Shown here: positions 40,749-51,513 of the stretch, piece by piece
Numbering within the stretch: position 1 is the first letter of the stretch
How the letters are laid out: each line of letters begins with the position of its first letter
NCBI GenBank assembly: GCA_956465555.1
Contig: OY101121.1
Coordinates: 2,194,722-2,258,721, forward strand
DNA: 64,000 nt
From: Nitzschia sp. pyKryTriq1
Taxonomy: Eukaryota; Bacillariophyta; Bacillariophyceae; Bacillariales; Bacillariaceae
Direction: 5' to 3'
Made by a program: the position numbers and the translations under genes
The notes under the pieces: generated by a model
Seen by the model: only the letters and a program-made list of their open reading frames with translations
The model's database searches: none
What the model was told of the DNA's origin: nothing

Positions 40749-42893
40749 CTACGTCTCGATCTTAGTAGACTTTGATGATTCTTGAGCTTCTTTCTCTCTC
40801 ATTCGTTTCCTCCAGGTCGTGATGCTCATATCGCCAATTCGATTCAAAGGTGGAGGATGCGTTTCGGCCCAGTCGGTAAACTTGGACGACCACATGTACG
40901 ACTCTTCCACCGATCCTCCAAACAATTCCCACATTTCCAAATCGCAATTTCGAAAGGCCGTCTGGATACGATCCCATTCCGGTGTGCCGGGCGTCGCACC
41001 CTGGGGCCACTTTCCATCGGGCGAACACAGCAAGGCTCCGACATAGCTTTGTCCAGCGCGACGGGCCGCTCCCGAATAATGCAGGACGGTCCAACTCAAA
41101 TCGTCGGCGGCATCCACGGTCGTCCAATGCTCCTCACTGACCATACCATTATCCAAAGTCGTCAAAGTCCAAGCTCCTGGCGACGATGACGAGGATGACG
41201 AAGCACTCCAATGTTTTCGAGGAGTGCATCGATAATGGCGTTTGCACCACACCAAATCCCCATCTAACGTTTCCACACAAAAGACGGGATCGTACCACAT
41301 GCTCTTGGGAGTATTGGTATTGGTATTGGTATTGGTATTGCTGCTGCTGCTACCTGCGGGATAAAAGATTTGATGCTGCATCGGAAAGGCATCATAGGCA
41401 GGATTGGCACCGACCACAATCTTCCAACTCCATGGATGTCGTCCTCCTCCGATATCATCATCATCATCATCATCGTTGTGCCTTTTCTTCAAGGCACTGC
41501 TGTCTGGATGTTCCAAGTGCCCCAATAAGATTTGTCGTGCCCCGATATGATCCAAGGGTTTCCCTCTCGGCCATTCTTTTAACAGTGGGACACGGGGTTG
41601 CTGCAATATGGGGGAATCGCATTGAAAGCAATTGTTTTGTTGCAAAATACACAAGGTAAAATCTTCGAGTTGTGGTGTTTCATTCGAAACAATCACGCGG
41701 TAGCTTCCGACTTGATCTCGTAAATCCAAATCATTCAATAAATCAATCGCCTTTTTGGATTGTGGATCCGACAGTGCGGCTTGAATTTGAGGTCCACAGC
41801 AATTCACCATGGTTTGAAATTCCTTTATATTGCGTCCCACGCCCTTTTCCCAGCTCGGATTGATATCCCCATTCTTGACGACATCAATGTTGGATAGAAT
41901 GTCGAGGGAATCAAGGACGAATAAAAGACTAAAGATGTAATCTTCCGAGGATTTGCGAGCGAGTAGTGTATCTGCCTTTTGCAACAAACGTTGATGTGAC
42001 GCCAAGGTACTCCATGGCACCAATTGAATATAGAGCGACTGCAGAGGATTTATGGTAGATGGATGATAGGTTCCGACAAATCGTTCTTGAAATATTTCGG
42101 GGGCGCAGGTCGGATCGCAAAGGACGGCTTGAATTTCATGATTGTTGTTGTTGTTGTTGTTGTTGTTGCTGTTCTTGTTCTTGCTGTTGTTGCGGAGGAG
42201 TAATAGTTGTTTCAGTGCCTCTTGCTCCGAAGGAGTGGCGACGCCCAACACTACTACCACATTGGTATCGGATGGCAATGATGATGATAGTGATGATGAT
42301 GATGCTAGATTAATCACATGCGTCTCGACAGTCGTAGTCGTCGTCGTATCTTCTTCTTCTTGGCTTTCCTCGCCGTCATTCTCCTTGCTGCGGACTTGAA
42401 CAAAATGAGGAAGTCGTTTGGCAAGTTGTTGTGCCACTTGAAACCACGTTGGATCAGGTAGTGGAGAAGTCGCTCCATATTGGGAAGGAGCCGAACCTGT
42501 CACAAAGACGATCCGGGCCTTGGATTGATTTTGTTCGTAAGTGGAAGTAGATGAAGAAGAAGAAGATGAAGCGGTCGGCGTGGTGCTCGTGGTGCTACTG
42601 GTCGATGATGATGGAGGCGGAGTGGTAGTGGACATTGCGAGGCATGATGGTGCGACGGATCTAGTAGTACCTGTAGCAGTAGCGGTACGAGAACGTCGAG
42701 GGGCAAACAAGGTTGATGCGGAAATGGAGGATTTGGATTTGGATTCGGATATTATGTATTTATATTTCGACGCTGCTGATGGTGATGGCGAAAACGCCGA
42801 TACCCGTACTACCACCGGTGCTGATGAGAGGAGGGCAGCAGCAAGGCATGATAGCCAAAGCGAAAGATTTAGGAGCTGATGAATCATCATCAT
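40749..42893 (-). CDS. VDR: Violaxanthin de-epoxidase-related protein, plastid
   Basis: 714 residues from the ATG at 42893; the frame upstream has only a TTG. The N-terminus LNLSLWLSCLAAALLSSAP then RVSAFSPSPSA is a signal peptide with an ASAF-type site, so plastid import is likely. A Ser/Thr-rich linker of about 70 residues follows. The conserved core matches VDE-related proteins rather than VDE itself: FTLCILQQNNCFQCDSP, VVGANPAYDAFPMQHQIFYP, MWYDPVFCVETLDGDLVWCK, TLTTLDNGMVSEEHWTTVDA, DDLSWTVLHYSGAARRAGQS and YVGALLCSPDGKWP. VDE enzymes remove epoxides from xanthophylls in photoprotection; the activity of VDR members is not settled. Two low-complexity insertions (Asn run near residue 245; Ser/Asn/Thr near 530) are unusual. 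A 150-residue domain of unknown kind precedes the core (VFVTGSAPSQYGATSPLPDP). Confidence 0.85.
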   Translation of the reverse strand: MMMIHQLLNLSLWLSCLAAALLSSAPVVVRVSAFSPSPSAASKYKYIISESKSKSSISASTLFAPRRSRTATATGTTRSVAPSCLAMSTTTPPPSSSTSSTTSTTPTASSSSSSSTSTYEQNQSKARIVFVTGSAPSQYGATSPLPDPTWFQVAQQLAKRLPHFVQVRSKENDGEESQEEEDTTTTTTVETHVINLASSSSLSSSLPSDTNVVVVLGVATPSEQEALKQLLLLRNNSKNKNSNNNNNNNNNHEIQAVLCDPTCAPEIFQERFVGTYHPSTINPLQSLYIQLVPWSTLASHQRLLQKADTLLARKSSEDYIFSLLFVLDSLDILSNIDVVKNGDINPSWEKGVGRNIKEFQTMVNCCGPQIQAALSDPQSKKAIDLLNDLDLRDQVGSYRVIVSNETPQLEDFTLCILQQNNCFQCDSPILQQPRVPLLKEWPRGKPLDHIGARQILLGHLEHPDSSALKKRHNDDDDDDDIGGGRHPWSWKIVVGANPAYDAFPMQHQIFYPAGSSSSNTNTNTNTNTPKSMWYDPVFCVETLDGDLVWCKRHYRCTPRKHWSASSSSSSSPGAWTLTTLDNGMVSEEHWTTVDAADDLSWTVLHYSGAARRAGQSYVGALLCSPDGKWPQGATPGTPEWDRIQTAFRNCDLEMWELFGGSVEESYMWSSKFTDWAETHPPPLNRIGDMSITTWRKRMREKEAQESSKSTKIET

Positions 42894-43576
42894 CGTCAAA
42901 CTACTCCTACCAAAGTGATAATACTCGTACTTGTACCGTTAGAGACAATATTATGAAGGAAGATCCTTTTCTCTTTTCTCGGCTCTCTCTTCTCTCGGCT
43001 TCGCGTCATCGCCCCCTCATGCATCGCATCGTCGCCCATTACAAACGTTAACGCGCGGCGATCGGTCGTCCAAGTCCAACTCTCATGCGTCTTCTCCAAT
43101 GCTTACGCGCTTGAGATGGATTGGAACTTAGATAGTCTTGATTTGATGTGATTCTGGTTGTTGGCGGGTGCTCTCGAGTGTTCTCATTGGTCGTTGACAC
43201 GCTCGCCCGCCCGCGAGGATATGAAAGTATACATAGATTCTACGTAAAAGCAGCCGCGCACGCCAGGCGTCCTCCAACGACGACGCGCCGGATTTCGAAC
43301 TCTTCAACAGAAAAACTACCGACTAACTGAAACTGAAAGCACTGGATGGAGGGCGGGGCGCGGGATTTCAAATCCCACACCCATGTCACCCCGGTACAAG
43401 TACAGTAGCAAGGAGCACAGCGGAACTGATGAACCTCTTTCTGGAGCCCTCACCATTCTTTGTTAAAACATCATCATCACTACTACTGTACTACTCACCA
43501 CAAGTACAAGTAGTCTACCGGTACCACCACCACCGGTGCGGTAGCCGTTGTGTTATTATTTTCTACCCCCTCCAAG
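42894..43576. other. Divergent intergenic region, VDR and TBC genes
   Basis: 683 bp, with ACCGGT words at 43517..43537 directly before the TBC start. No gene is supported. Confidence 0.5.
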
Positions 43577-46500
43577 ATGGAGGATCGTAGCGGCAGCAAT
43601 GGCAACAGCAGTACACCTGCTGTGATTGTTGTTCCACCACCACCGCCAGCAGCAGCAGTAGCAGTCCAAGTCGTCGTCCAAGATGATACGGAGACGGACA
43701 GCAAAGAGTGGGAGATTCAATGTTGCTTGAATGGTGGCAGCGTTGGTGTTGGATCTTCTCCGTCTACTCCTTCTTCGAATGGTGATGCCACTCAATCGCG
43801 ACACCACCAGCAACAACACCAACAACAGCCACAAACGCAATGGTGGGTCGATCTCGTTCAGTTGCGCCAACTCGCGATATCCACCGGAGGACTCAAGACG
43901 ATTGCCTTGCGTCGTCAAGCTTGGCCCAAATTAGTGGCCGCTCATGAAGTGTTGTGGAAGGGAGCAGGGAGTACTAGTGAATGTACTGCTACTACTACCA
44001 GTACTACTACCAGTACTACTACTTCTACTTATGATCGCAAGACACGACGAAAGCTTCACAAGCTAGCCCAACGCGCCACTTGGAGCAAGTGTCAAATGAC
44101 ACAATCGCCCAAGACCTTTGATGAACTCTTGGGGTTGGTTCTCTCTGCTACGTCTGCTTCCAAGAATGACAACAACAACAACAACATCAACAACAGTGAA
44201 GACGCTCCGAGCATCGTTCCTCCTACTCCGGAGAACAACTATACTGATACTGCCATCAATCCTAAAAGTACTACGAATCCTTTGGCAGCTTCGGGGTCCT
44301 TCAGTCCCTTGACTTCTCCCACAACGACGATGACGATGACTCCACAGACCAATCGACTTCGTCGCGTCTCGTTTGAAGACGACGACGATGATGATGATGA
44401 TGATGAGAAAGAGGAGGAGTTAGGATCGTCATCTTTGAAACAAATCAACAACCACAAGGCTCCACCAGCAACAACAGCACGACAAGTCGAACGACAACGT
44501 CTCGCACAACTTCGTCAAGATGAACGTCGAGTCTTGTTCAAGCTCTTGGAACATTTGCATCGAGTATTACTATCCTCGACTTCATCAAGAACTTCAACAA
44601 GAACTTCAACAAGAACAACAACATCGTCAGCGTCATCAGCGTTTTCACAGATTTTCCAAGATGGAATTCAAAATCGATTGGCCGTCTTGTGGATTGTTCT
44701 GGAAACTCCCTCCTTGACATCCATTACCAGTCTTCAACTGGCTCCCTACTCGTGGAAACAACTACGCACACGTACGGGTACACGTACACATACACATACT
44801 ACCCTACATAAATCACAACCACAGCAACCAGATACCACGGATGGGGAAGACGGTGAAGAAGCAGAAGAGGATGATGACAATGACAATGATGATGATTTAT
44901 TCTTGCAATTATTGCACTTGTGGGATCCACATTTACATCATCATTTGGTACACACCTTGGGCGGCTACAACAACCATGATCCGCATACTGGTACTACTAC
45001 TGGTACTGGTACTGGTGGTACACCCTCGTGTATTGCCCAATCTTGGATTCCTCATTGGTTCGCACAAGACTTGACTGATTTGCATATTTTGTTACGCATT
45101 TGGGATGTCTTGATGGCATTCCCTGCTCCTACAACGATTGTGTAAGTGCATACTTCGTATGACGGACTGTTGAGTATCGTGCTGGTGGTTGGTTTCAATC
45201 AAAAAATGTCAGTGTTGGATGTTCTTACGGCGTTCTCATGTTTCCATTTTCATTCTCCTTTTCACGCACGTTTGGTATTTCAAGATACTTTTCCGTGGCC
45301 TTGGTGGTTCATTTTCGTGATCCAATCTTGGCGACCCATCAACGTCCTGTTTTGGAAGCGATTCTACAACATTTGCCAAGTGATGGATTGGAAAAATACT
45401 ACAATAATGAACAAGTCGTCGAACAAATTATTGAGGAATGTCTGGAAGGAATGCAAAAGTACGATTGTTCTTATTCTTCTTCGGCTTCGACTTTTATTGC
45501 AGCTGTTCCTATTACAAAAAGTTCAAGTACTACCAATTTGACCTCCTGTTTGTCTTCGGGATCCTTGTCATCATTGGCAAAAGCGGCCTTGCCCATTCTG
45601 ACCTCACCCTCGCGAAGACGCAAACACCAGGAATCATCATCCATTCCGGATTGGGCGGAAGCGAAGACTGCACCTACAGACTATCAAGTGTTGCAACGAC
45701 TGGCACAATTGCGTCGTGAAAAAGAACATCAAAAGCAACAAGAGCATCAGCAAAAGCAGAAGCAACAGAATCATCAGCCACGACAGTTGCTACTTTCGGA
45801 CAACGCAGGAGAAGAAGAAGAACTAGACGAGACAGAAGGAAGTACTAATAGTACCGATGCCGATCCACTCATGTCACCGCCACCAGCTACCACCATTGAA
45901 ACGTATGGTGGTGGTGGTGGGGATAGCACCACGACGACGACGACCATCACTCCTCGTGCTACTCGTGCCCTTTCTCATCAACATCATCAACGACAGCAAC
46001 CAGATCATGACGATGATGAAACGACATTGGAGACTCTGCTGGATCTGGATCCAACACCTTGCAGCACACCCGAAAGTTTGGGGGGCAACAAGAACAAGAA
46101 CAACAAGGAATCATCGTCATTCTTGTTGTTTGACAAGCGACGATCATCATCTTTCACGATCAACATGCCTGGGAAGAGGATGCTGATGGTGATGGTGGCT
46201 GCTACAACGTTTATCGTTGGTCTACTCGTGCTGACCACCATGACTGGATATTGTCATTATCACTCCAACGAAAGTCCTCCAGCAACCGCATTCAACATGA
46301 TCGACGAGACTTCCATTACTACTTCGAGTACTCCTAAAGAGGAGCTACTACACGTTCCAGCGACAACCTTTGTCGCTCCGGATTCATCGTTGACGGCCAT
46401 CACACAACAAAACGAACCGCTACCGGTATTGACGATCGAGTCGTCGATGGCGGCCGATGAAAAGCCCTCTTCCTCCACTCCTCTCGACAGAACTCGTTTT

Positions 46501-49500
46501 GCCGTCGAGACCGTGCAGGAGGACTCTTCTTGTTGTGCTGACAACCTTGACCAGGATGAAGACTTTTACTTTGTGTCGCCAATTCAAGCAAATGTGGAGG
46601 CCATGGTACTAGAAGCCAACCACAATATGGACGAGGTCACGCCAGTAGTGGCTCTACCAGAGGACAGTACTGGTATTCTGACGGACGACTTTGTCTCTTC
46701 GCCAGATAGTACTATTGAAACTGAGCACCGACGAGTCGTTGTGGAACCGTTTGAGGAGGAACCCGTCGAAGTGCAACTCGAACAGCCACTAGTATTCAAG
46801 AAGACCTCCTTTCAAAATGCTATGGGTCGAAGATTCTCGACCATGCTGTCCAAGACCCAGGATGGTACTCTTCAAGTCGCTTCTCATTGGAAACGGACGA
46901 CACTGAATATCCTTGAAAGCGGTGTTCGGAGGACCGGAGAAGGAGCCAAACGTTCCCTGGAATCAATGGGTCGAGCGGCTAACGATGGTATCACTTCGGT
47001 ACAGGGAACGGCCGCACAAGCCTCGCGCTTGGTACGCTCGGGAACAAAGAGCTCTTGGAAGGCAATGGACAAAGTAACACAACGCGCACTGCTTTCCGCC
47101 CGTCTTGGCGCCAAGAACAGTTTGGTGTCGATCAAGGGGACGACGGTGCGAGTCTCGGAGCTGGCACGATCGAGGACCGAGAGTTCGTTGAAAGCTCTTG
47201 GTCACGGTGCTCGGGCCACTAGCCGTGAGACGCAACGTGCGATGCACTTTCTGGGTGCAGTTGCCAAGCAAGGTCTCACGCACGTCGTGGGGACGGCCAC
47301 GCTAGCCTCAGACTTGGCCCGGGCAGGGACCAACTCTACTTTGAATGCTCTTGGAGGAGGAGTGCGTGCCACCAAGAACGACGCCGAGCGTGTGATATCA
47401 GTGCTTCGTTTGGGTGCCAAGGAGAGTTTCGCGTCCGTCCAGGGGTCGACGGCGCGAGTCTCGGAGCTGGCGCGATCTGGGACCAAGAGTTCATTGAAGG
47501 CTATTGGAGAAAGAGTGCAGGTCACCAAGAACGACGCCGAGCGTTTGATATCAGTGCTTCGTCTGGGTGCCAAGAAGAGTTTCGTGTCCGTCAAGGGGAC
47601 GACGACGCGAGTCTCGGAGCTGGCGCGATCGGGGACCAAGAGTTCATTGAAGGCTCTTGGAGGAGGAGTGCGGGCCACCAACCGTGGAACGCTGCGTGCG
47701 ATGCACTCTCTGGGTGCGGGTGCCAAGCAAGGTCTCACACACGTCGTGGGGACGACCACGCGAGCCTCACACTTGGCCCGGGCAGGGACCAATTCTACTT
47801 TGAATGCTCTTGGAGAAGGAGTGCGTACCACCAAGAACGACGCCGAGCGTGCGGTATCACTGCTTCGTCTGGGTGCCAAGAAGAGTTTCGTGTCCGTCAA
47901 GGGGACGACGGCGCGAGTGTCGGAGCTGGCGCGATCGGGGACCAAGAGTTCATTGAAGGCGCTTGGCCACGGTGCCCGGGCCACCGGCTATGGAGCCCAA
48001 CGCGCGATACATCATTTTAATGTTGGCGCCAAGCGTGGCTTCTCTTCCTTTGCCGAAACGACGACGCGAGTCTCGCATTGCGCACGGATAGGAACCAACA
48101 CCACGCTGAATGCACTAGCCAACGGTGCTCGTATTGCCAGTCAAGGAAGGCTGCCTGTGATTAATTCCCTTCGTCTGGGTGCTACACATGGTCTTCATTC
48201 GGTCAGGGGAACTACGACGCGTGCCTCTCAGTTGGCGCGATTAGGAACCAACACCACGTTGAATGCTCTCGGCAAATACCTTCGTCTTGGCGCACAACGA
48301 GTTATCAGGTCCGCCACGGGTACTACGACGCGAGCCTCGGAAATGGCACGATTGGGAATAGCCACGGCTTTGAAGGCTCTTCGTTACGGTGCTCGGGCCA
48401 CCAACCAAGTATCCCAGAGGGCCATTTATTCCGTCCACCTCGCTGGCAGGCAAAGTTTTGAGTCCCTCGCGGCCACTGGTTCTAACCTTTTTGAGCTGAT
48501 TTCGTGCCTATTCGTGATGGCCGTCCTGTCAGCTGGATACTACACCACGGAGAATGCATCCAACACGATCATAGAGCCTAAAGAACTACTATCGAAAACA
48601 ACTGTCGCTCCAGTTTCGACCACGGGAATTGAAGCTACTTGTCGTCTCACCACCACCGGGGACGAGAAAGACATCTTCCTCTGCCCAATAAAGACTAATG
48701 CTGAGGACTTGCAAGCCGTAGAGTCGCTCGATAGAGAAAGGTCTGCTCGTACCTTCGTGAAAGGTTCCCTCGGTTTCATTGGCCGTGCTGCCAAACAAGG
48801 GTTCGGGTCCGTCGTGGGTACTTCGGTGCGAGCTTCGCATTTGGTGCGAGTCGGGACGAACACCACCCTAAATGCTCTTGGTAGCGGTGTTCGGGCCACC
48901 AGCCAAGGAACAACTTCTCTTCGCCTTGGCGCCAATCAAGGTTTGGAGTCGCTCATGGGTACGGCGTCAAGAGTTCTTGAGTTGAGTTCCAGAAAACTAG
49001 ACTCTCTCGTCATTAGCAAGTCTTTGAGCCGGGCCATGCCAGTTGCATGGTACCGAGTGACTTCCACTCCTACGAATGTACTGCTTCGCCGGAACGCCCA
49101 TTTTATTGGTTCTCATCGTGTTGGCCACCCCTCTCATAGAAGACGAGCTCGCGGTGCGAATGATATCGCTCGAGATGCCCTTCTACGAAAGAATCATCCC
49201 CACGTGCTCCAGGCTATTCAAGATTCTTCCTTGGGGGCTGTCCGTCAGGTCATTGCCCCGGCGGAAAATATTCCTATTGGCGAAACGTATCTCCGAATGA
49301 ATGATTCGGAGACGCCTGCCGCTGTCCCGCAGCAAGAAGTCGATGCTGGTGCGGAGGCATGGCACGCCGTTCGAGATCCTTCGAGTCAACGGATAGAAGG
49401 AATGGGAGATGCCCGAGTTGCCATAGTTGGAGCTCTGGATTCCCTGCTTGGTAGATTCCGAAAGAATGGCGACAAGGTAAAAGAAGGGGTATCCGCCATG

Positions 49501-49551
49501 GGTCGAAATGGGCCATCGCGGGCTTTTCTGGGGCTCAAAACAATACAATAA
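43577..49551 (+). CDS. TBC-domain protein (TBC1D20/Gyp8-like) fused to a 51-residue repeat array
   Basis: Exons 43577..45141 and 45285..49551 join in phase 2 over a 143-bp intron (GTAAGT...TCAAG) to give 1943 residues. The splice falls inside the TBC domain: SWIPHWFAQDLTDLHILLRI, then WDVLMAFPAPTTIV in exon 1 and YFSVALVVHFRDPIL in exon 2. TBC domains are GAPs for Rab GTPases; this subgroup acts on Rab1-type GTPases at the ER. The catalytic Arg (IxxDxxR) and Gln (YxQ) fingers are not clear; FQDGIQNRLAVL is the nearest Gln motif. A membrane segment lies near residues 821-842 (MLMVMVAATTFIVGLLVLTT). Residues about 1103-1589 are ten tandem units, mostly 51 residues, with the consensus LARSGTKSSLKALGGGVRAT then RLGAKKSFVSVKGTTTRVSE. 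A second hydrophobic segment (ISCLFVMAVLSAGYY) and a diverged unit follow. The repeat half could be a separate gene using an ATG such as 45238 or 46165, but exon 2 is open without a break. Confidence 0.75.
47026..48486 (+). repeat. Coding tandem repeat array, 153-bp unit
   Basis: Unit starts: 47026, 47161, 47314, 47467, 47620, 47773, 47926, 48079, 48232 and 48343. Seven units are exactly 153 bp (51 codons); the first, ninth and tenth are shorter (45, 37 and 48 codons). Some segments are nearly identical in DNA, for example GCGCGATCGGGGACCAAGAG around 47625 and 47931. Confidence 0.9.
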
Positions 49552-50088: not shown

Positions 50089-51513
50089 ATGCACACAGCA
50101 AGACATTCATTACGTTGCTTTATCCAAGAAGGTGATGGCACTAGCCAGCACCGAGAGCTTGACGCGATGACAATGATGATTCAGACTCTTGCCATCATGT
50201 CAGAAGAAGAATCCAAAAATATCAATGCTGACAATACTACTACATCACGCACTTCTTGTATTGCTACGAGCAGCAGTAACAAAGAAATCCGAGATGCCGC
50301 CCGCGCCATTGCCGAGTGTGATTTCTTGCTAGTCGCCACGGGCGCTGGATTTTCGGCTGATTCGGGCCTACCGACGTATACCCAAGTCGCTCAAAATCCC
50401 ATCTATGAGGAACTAGGAATTGAATATTCGGATTTGTGCCGAGTCGAATGTTTGATGAAACGTCCGGCCTTGTTTTATGGATTTTGGGGTGGGTGTTGGA
50501 ATGCCTATCAAGAAGCGACGCCCCACGAAGGATACACGATCCTGAAAAAATGGTGTTGCGAGCAAAAGAAGCAGCAGAAGAACGACTACTATCACTACAC
50601 AAGCAATGTGGATGGCTACTTGCGACGAGTCGGATTTCCCAAAGAAAGGATCCATGAGATGCATGGGTCCATTGACACTTGGTTACTGTCCGCCGTGCTG
50701 GCTAATAATGATGATGATCATCATCATGAGGATCATCATGACGAGGATGTACAAATTGAACTTTCTCCTTCCTTTCGATTTCCCATTGACAGTGCAACTA
50801 TGGAATTAGCATTGAAGCCAGAGAGTGTGTTAGGGGATCTTCTCCTTGCTGAAGAAAACCAAAAGGAACAACTGTTACCACCACGGCCAAGACAAGACGG
50901 CAGGATGAGTGGTGACAACAGCAAAAACTACAGCAACAACAACAGCAGCAACATCAGCAGGAGGAAGAACAAACGTTTGTTCCGACCCCGAGTCCTCATG
51001 TTTGATGACGGCTTGGAGGATCATAAAGCAATGGGACTACACGAGTCCTCGGATCGGTATCAAGCCTGGGAGGAACACATGGAAACGGAAATGGCGAATA
51101 GTAGTACTACGGATAGTAGTACTATAAAGAAAAAGTTGGTGGTTTTGGAGATTGGATGTGGCATTCGAGTTCCCAGTGTCCGACAAGAATGTCACGATGT
51201 AATGGTCGATACTGCTACTCGATGTCTACTAAAACAACAACAACAACAGCAGCAGCAGCAACAACAACAAATGGGACGTGAGCACGACGAGTATGTTTTG
51301 AAGGAAAAATGCTGTACGCACATTCGAATCAATCCCGACTTATTGGAGGAGGATGGGGAGGACGCAGCAGCAGGAATGAAACAAACCATGCCGTCTTCTT
51401 CTTCTTCTAGTTCTTCCTCCTGCTGGGATCTCATTGATACCATTTCCATTCCAGGCACCGCTTTGCTCACATTAAAAGCTATCGATGAGCAAATGCTGCA
51501 ATGGAACTCGTAG
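50089..51513 (+). CDS. Sirtuin-like (SIR2) NAD-binding protein without zinc cysteines
   Basis: 474 residues from the first in-frame ATG at 50089; later ATGs at 50167 and 50197 are also possible, because the domain begins only near residue 75. Sirtuins use NAD+ to deacylate lysines. The NAD-binding signature FLLVATGAGFSADSGLPTY (about 77-97), the TSNVDGYLRRVGF segment and the catalytic His in RIHEMHGSID are present. The expected two CxxC zinc pairs after the His are absent: the region instead holds an acidic/His low-complexity stretch (residues about 205-225). RPRVLMFDD and LVVLEIGCGIRVPSVRQE match the later NAD-site strands. A poly-Gln run (near residue 385) and a poly-Ser run are inserted near the C-terminus. 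It is likely a zinc-less sirtuin-like protein; activity is not certain. The gene converges on the TPR gene. Confidence 0.82.
   Translation: MHTARHSLRCFIQEGDGTSQHRELDAMTMMIQTLAIMSEEESKNINADNTTTSRTSCIATSSSNKEIRDAARAIAECDFLLVATGAGFSADSGLPTYTQVAQNPIYEELGIEYSDLCRVECLMKRPALFYGFWGGCWNAYQEATPHEGYTILKKWCCEQKKQQKNDYYHYTSNVDGYLRRVGFPKERIHEMHGSIDTWLLSAVLANNDDDHHHEDHHDEDVQIELSPSFRFPIDSATMELALKPESVLGDLLLAEENQKEQLLPPRPRQDGRMSGDNSKNYSNNNSSNISRRKNKRLFRPRVLMFDDGLEDHKAMGLHESSDRYQAWEEHMETEMANSSTTDSSTIKKKLVVLEIGCGIRVPSVRQECHDVMVDTATRCLLKQQQQQQQQQQQQMGREHDEYVLKEKCCTHIRINPDLLEEDGEDAAAGMKQTMPSSSSSSSSSCWDLIDTISIPGTALLTLKAIDEQMLQWNS

Follow-up and report, generated by a model that had tools for sequence, protein, structure and literature searches.

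The window analyzed here, a stretch of 64,000 nucleotides from the diatom Nitzschia sp. pyKryTriq1 (assembly GCA_956465555.1, contig OY101121.1, positions 2,194,722 to 2,258,721), contains a gene whose product appears to have an unusual architecture, in which a paralog of TBC1D20 without the finger motifs is followed by an array of 51-residue repeats. The gene lies on the plus strand of contig C7 of the genome searched (40.65 Mb, 20 contigs) and comprises two exons, 43577-45141 and 45285-49551, encoding 1,943 amino acids (aa). Under the reading tentatively favored, with confidence somewhat short of even, the product is an endoplasmic reticulum (ER)-anchored, probable pseudo-GTPase-activating protein (pseudo-GAP) paralogous to TBC1D20/Gyp8, whose luminal tail has grown into a basic, weakly amphipathic array. 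An earlier note on this DNA had proposed a Rab GAP fused to membrane-flanked repeats at an ER-derived surface; its outline is right, while its functional placement is probably wrong.

Human TBC1D20 (4hl4/4hlq) supplies two of the three sequences found at E ≤ 1 in a PDB search with the TBC half, at E 6.5e-7, neuroguidin (E 0.33) being the other, and it remains the best match when low-complexity sequence is trimmed (E 2.7e-7), with TBC1D7 next at E 0.064. On these matches the TBC half belongs with TBC1D20, the other PDB matches not being convincing, and the TBC1D20/Gyp8-like assignment of the earlier note is borne out to that extent; the domain itself is degenerate. Pfam PF00566 scores 20.1 bits against a gathering cut-off of 25.2, its best stretch covering profile positions 159-216 only, and the gene is absent from the 10 matches of a genome-wide PF00566 search in which exons were left unjoined. 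A genome search with the trimmed TBC part returns four pieces of the gene itself, a locus on contig C4 (E 1.8e-4) and one on contig C1 at chance level (E 0.21). The contig C4 gene (L033; G000:C4:179500-186000, minus strand) encodes 1,075 aa after its two exons are joined, matches TBC1D20 with E 8e-34 (trimmed query) and PF00566 with 52.2 bits against the cut-off of 25.2, and has both finger motifs, IERDVSR being present and YYQGYHD aligning with the human YYQGYHD. By these measures L033 is the canonical TBC1D20 of the same genome. Its TBC domain is followed by a linker, a membrane segment and an extension of about 280 residues without 51-residue repeats, and because this order already exists there, the window protein is better described as a TBC1D20 paralog with an expanded tail than as the fusion first proposed.

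A pattern search of aa 80-600 of the window protein finds neither the arginine finger IxxDxxR nor the glutamine finger YxQ, and since the canonical paralog has both and PF00566 stays below its cut-off, the protein is probably a non-catalytic TBC1D20 paralog, a pseudo-GAP, rather than the Rab GAP named in the earlier note. In excerpts of a study of Toxoplasma TBC proteins (PMC11101121), the two motifs are taken as a dual-finger active site, the rescue achieved with one of these proteins was disrupted when either was mutated, and both motifs are kept in 10 of 18. Two points weigh against the loss of catalysis. The alignments cross long low-complexity inserts, so motifs could be misplaced, and a finger could be provided by LRQDERR (aa 312) or by FQDG (aa 360). 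LRQDERR (44510) is the nearest arginine-finger-like string, given a relaxed first position, and its local-alignment score against the paralog motif is reached by 180 of 500 shuffles. When the glutamine-finger stretch of the paralog was aligned locally, its sole match was a run rich in asparagine, and the placement of that site rests on the MAFFT alignment.

The 51-residue tandem period is overwhelming: autocorrelation reaches 1.56 at lag 51, 1.57 at lag 102 and 1.74 at lag 153, against a shuffle mean of -0.55 (sd 0.095, highest -0.18), as the earlier note had seen. At the short lags that an 11-residue sub-repeat of perilipin type (3-11 helix) would favor, 22 (-0.04) and 33 (-0.11) also exceed the highest shuffle, and lag 11 (-0.21) falls below it. 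The ten units counted previously come close to the seven full-length and about four truncated or degenerate ones (one by eye) that precede the second hydrophobic segment; the layout does not end at that segment, beyond which the array resumes with one scored unit (aa 1688, 63.6 bits). On a profile built from six units, those six score 129.5-147.3 and the seventh full unit (aa 1434) 48.6. All array matches in the genome fall within this gene (six of six at E 0.001, ten of ten at E 10) in a single-protein search with the best candidates scored, and no close relatives of the array were found in viral or prokaryotic contigs with six peptide patterns each. No protein of such architecture is named in the titles and abstracts of the literature searched, which was covered in part. 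Two matches were set aside as probably compositional, namely the designed repeat protein 7ue2 in the PDB (E 8.7e-4) and the Pfam family YqbF_HeH, below its cut-off.

The divergence among units marks copies of very different age. Units aa 1179 and 1332, three positions apart, share 92% DNA identity, with a ratio of nonsynonymous to synonymous rates (dN/dS) of 1.22, and all six pairs involving the aa 1434 unit, the most diverged of the seven, have dS 1.08-1.28 and dN/dS 0.40-0.66, a pattern from which older copies would have been kept as protein while part of the array is recent. Within 47101-48018 the units form a mosaic in which two end types (KNDAER and QRAMH-like) are variously combined, and the three-unit 459-bp period outscores the single one. 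Block duplication and exchange between copies are suggested. An unlikely but far from negligible alternative is low-constraint expansion, in which tandem duplications of a 153-bp unit lengthened the tail, with little role for it beyond being tolerated. It draws on the 92%-identical pair with dN/dS 1.22, on the ratio exceeding 1 in five of the 21 unit pairs (it is below 1 in 16), which also weighs against the favored reading in that part of the array may be drifting, on the occurrence of the array in this gene alone within the genome, and on the abundance of further low-complexity inserts in the gene. It is opposed by the low ratios of the six aa 1434 pairs, by the scarcity of proline and by a helical phase common to all nine units tested.

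That phase belongs to a signal visible in the units themselves. When angles from 60 to 180 degrees are scanned, the mean hydrophobic moment of the seven full units is highest at 98-99 degrees, and of harmonics 6-25 of the unit the 14th (98.8 degrees, moment 0.249) is the strongest, so that a helical unit would make 14 turns and keep its face; the moment of the array is 0.25-0.27. Column shuffles at the fixed angle, which was known from the earlier scan, reached the observed mean moments 8, 4, 4 and 2 times per 1000 in four settings, and a stricter test, in which the angle could take six values between 94 and 104 degrees, did so in 79 of 5000. All nine units tested, three more diverged ones included and the leading degenerate and truncated units left out, have phases of -87 to -103 degrees; their moments are 0.18-0.28. 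In six of six comparisons the projected moment is above the mean of simulated neutral drift that starts from a single reference unit, and the six drift-tested units hold one proline in total against 1.5-2.4 expected per unit. The array is 0.37 hydrophobic, 0.022 aromatic and 0.21 charged, and Ser plus Thr account for about 21% of those seven units. At the level of its residues, the array carries an in-phase, weakly amphipathic helical signal and is basic and nearly proline-free.

Other results weaken a helical interpretation. The drift values were singly reached by 16, 18, 26, 69, 75 and 124 of 400 simulations, so most comparisons are weak, and the phase and drift tests are not independent, the units being related; Gly makes up 11% of the seven full units. 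AlphaFold draws two units partly as strand (predicted local distance difference test, pLDDT, 40.3) and, in a model of the whole C-terminal part, the array mostly as helices at pLDDT 35.7. Of the helical, amphipathic look ascribed to the units in the earlier note, some of that character stands, and a confident AlphaFold helix is missing. The C-terminal tail gives no Pfam match at E 0.1. An amphipathic stretch near the end of the L033 extension (moment 0.51) fits a luminal membrane-contact theme common to both paralogs, which is only suggestive.

The placement of the array follows from membrane segment 1, read by the positive-inside rule from the charges flanking it, together with standard hydropathy and hydrophobicity scales. 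Segment 1 has a Kyte-Doolittle hydropathy of 2.43 over 19 residues (aa 821-839), contains no proline, and is flanked by net charges of +5 (15 residues on the N-terminal side) and -1 (15 residues on the C-terminal side); it is also the highest-confidence 10-residue block (pLDDT 63) of a low-confidence model. An anchor C-terminal to the TBC domain, as in the TBC1D20/Gyp8 family, is thereby present by sequence. The L033 segment (hydropathy 1.92) has flanks of +3 and -1, and because both segments carry this bias the TBC part is predicted to be cytosolic and the array to lie in the ER lumen. The second hydrophobic segment is not established as spanning, since its hydropathy (1.77) is below that of a helix inside the TBC domain (1.85), and it has no basic bias on either side; only the first of the two hydrophobic segments noted earlier is therefore upheld as a predicted membrane span. 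A duplication of the membrane segment plus spacer was considered and rejected (local alignment score 43, reached by 16 of 1000 shuffles, the highest at 59).

Three points run counter to a luminal array. N-glycosylation sequons are not enriched in the predicted luminal part (5, against 5.8 in shuffles); segment 2, if spanning, would leave units on both sides of the membrane; and the net charge of the array, +61, is unusual for the lumen, strongly basic stretches usually remaining on the cytosolic side. This basic character would suit an active Rab GAP with repeats that cover a cytosolic surface derived from the ER, for example lipid droplets, with segment 1 as a hairpin or monolayer anchor, and the array values also lie near those of the published perilipin 4 (Plin4) helix (excerpts of PMC5889406). 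Such a coating, which the earlier note had suggested, is nonetheless improbable: the finger motifs are absent from aa 80-600, segment 1 is proline-free with a strongly basic N flank as in L033, its flanks predict the lumen, and Pfam scans of the C-terminal part at E 1 and E 0.1 contain no perilipin model.

For the favored pseudo-GAP with a luminal array, the following mechanism may be proposed. Segment 1 would cross the ER membrane once, leaving the TBC part in the cytosol and the basic array in the lumen, where the array would fold on contact with lipid or with the adjacent acidic spacer. A lipid-induced luminal helix array is suggested because the acidic spacer (-26) and the basic array (+61) stand behind a single membrane segment. 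The folded array would form a long helix along the luminal leaflet, and its multivalent weak binding would retain the protein in a membrane domain. The pseudo-TBC part would bind a Rab without speeding GTP hydrolysis and would thereby compete with, or scaffold, the active paralog. Rab1 and Rab2 (PMC9804665) and Rab18 (PMC4632505) are candidates since they are known for the TBC1D20 family. A luminal array might instead bind a non-lipid partner, such as an acidic spacer belonging to another molecule, or polyanions of a diatom silica vesicle. The adjoining charges of spacer and array, the Ser and Thr content of the units and eight silicon-transporter matches in the genome would agree with this; with no sign of a silica compartment in this analysis, the idea is given very little credence. 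Seven of the eight matches to the transporter family (PF03842) exceed 870 bits, which points to a diatom genome, and four of the eight lie within about 42 kb of contig C1 (G000:C1:275839-317295).

A single product is a better reading of the gene than two. Exon 2 is stop-free over 4.27 kb, or about 1,421 codons (chance ~5.5e-32 at window composition), so that the single open exon of 4.3 kb reported earlier is confirmed, and the start at 43577 likewise stands. Acceptor 45212 would add 24 residues relative to 45284; the latter, with exon 2 starting at 45285, is most likely, since TTIV then joins YFSVALVV in a helix that is unbroken in human TBC1D20 and in the paralog. The alternative of two genes or proteins, with the TBC part ending early and a second product starting at ATG 46165 with first residues like those of a signal anchor, has in its favor that this in-frame ATG directly precedes the membrane segment and that G+C at third codon positions (GC3), 0.33-0.35 where the TBC part ends, is about 0.50 from 45886 and 0.63-0.66 in the array. 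GC3, however, shows no step at the ATG, having reached 0.50 before it, and is 0.45-0.49 in exon 1 and again 0.44-0.45 in the tail. A first product has no obvious end, because exon 2 (45285 to 49551) is free of in-frame stops and of GTAAGT and GTGAGT donors, and its sole GTRAG, at 47225, is within the array. In the paralog, moreover, a single exon encodes everything from the last part of the TBC domain through linker and membrane segment to the extension, and two products are accordingly very improbable. A codon-usage test of one against two genes decides for neither, since its training set contained the gene's own exon 1 and another frame outscores frame 0 in the membrane segments.

According to excerpts of PMC9804665, TBC1D20 is among the ER factors of probable last eukaryotic common ancestor age, and reticulons and lunapark were lost from stramenopiles. 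A reticulon (PF02453) search of the genome gave no match, but its control was silent too, so it carries no weight; REEP-type sequences (PF03134) score above cut-off at four of five places. If the favored reading is true, a degenerate TBC1D20 paralog bearing an array of luminal helices would offer a concrete candidate for an ER factor specific to its lineage, and a long, weakly amphipathic helix array would have arisen independently of perilipins. A bolder version, which is unlikely, is that a spare TBC1D20 turned into a membrane-spanning pseudo-GAP scaffold, with a cytosolic Rab-binding head and a giant perilipin-4-like luminal helix whose role would be to sense or shape the luminal leaflet; this would link Rab control and the luminal membrane surface in one chain. 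Should the helix signal alone hold, it would still describe a natural repeat length, 14 turns in 51 residues, that keeps one face in register.

Beside the gene, the open frame 50176-51510 on the plus strand has a Sir2-family match (38.7 bits, cut-off 24), and the open frame 40749-42938 on the minus strand a match to violaxanthin de-epoxidase lipocalin just below cut-off (24.6 against 25.7 bits), with an N terminus that looks plastid-targeting-like by eye. The features of the gene itself are listed in the table.

Table. Features of the gene and of its predicted product, in window positions.
Feature	Position	Strand	Description	Basis
Exon 1	43577..45141	+	ATG, low-complexity N terminus, most of the degenerate TBC1D20-like domain	Open frame; TBC1D20 matches at aa 90-121 and 484-538
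LHKLAQRATW, possible arginine-finger remnant	44054..44083	+	IERDVSRCTW in the paralog; Asp missing	By eye; alone not significant
FQDGIQN (aa 360), site aligned to YYQGYHD of the paralog	44654..44674	+	No YxQ	MAFFT alignment
Intron	45142..45284	+	143 bp, GTAAGT...TTTCAAG; competing acceptor 45212	Both acceptors frame-preserving
Exon 2	45285..49551	+	End of TBC domain, linker, membrane segment, spacer, repeats, C-terminal tail, stop	
PDWAEAKTAPTDYQVLQRL, short match to the L033 linker PTWSLISMSPSDWVLKQRL	45646..45702	+	37% over 19 aa, weak	blastp, E 1.0
Membrane segment 1 (aa 821-841)	46180..46242	+	Predicted N-cytosolic/C-luminal	Basic N flank
Acidic spacer (aa 842-1044)	46243..46851	+	Net charge -26	
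Leading degenerate units (~aa 1048-1127)	46861..47100	+		Second scores 10.4 on the profile; first by eye only
Seven full-length ungapped 51-residue units (aa 1128-1484)	47101..48171	+		Tandem Repeats Finder (TRF) periods of 153 bp and 459 bp; autocorrelation; profile
Truncated unit (37 aa) and one degenerate 51-aa unit	48172..48435	+		Profile, 36.9 and 45.2 bits
Second hydrophobic segment (aa 1588-1609), weak	48481..48546	+	Flanks 0/-2	Hydropathy 1.77
Resumed repeat: one unit (aa 1688) and a partial one	48781..48975	+	After segment 2; partial unit by eye	63.6 bits; match in the genome search with the array
C-terminal tail	48976..49548	+	Amphipathic stretch at about aa 1902-1923	Moment 0.54-0.56

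Among known systems, human TBC1D20 and yeast Gyp8 are ER-anchored Rab GAPs in which the TBC domain precedes a membrane anchor, and the human tail after the anchor is very short. Human TBC1D20 is the best PDB match of the window protein, which differs from this pair in having no IxxDxxR or YxQ in aa 80-600 and about 1,100 residues after its membrane segment. L033 resembles it in the TBC1D20-like domain, the membrane segment with a basic N flank and the long post-membrane extension, and differs in keeping both fingers and in having an extension of about 280 aa that is free of the 51-residue repeats. Some of the Toxoplasma TBC proteins likewise are without one or both finger motifs, whereas the 51-residue array is a feature of the window protein for which the excerpted text of PMC11101121 has no counterpart. 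The Plin4 array is built of 33-residue units rather than 51-residue ones, some of which are truncated in the window protein, and the array described here is more charged, stands behind a membrane segment, is predicted to be luminal and has no family match. Excerpts of PMC5889406 give the Plin4 helix, which is unfolded in solution, a moment of 0.257, with hydrophobic, charged and aromatic fractions of 0.35, 0.15 and 0.002. Both are long tandem arrays with a weak moment and a composition rich in Gly, Thr and Val, and the window array comes near the Plin4 helix in composition and in moment, the moments being from different programs.

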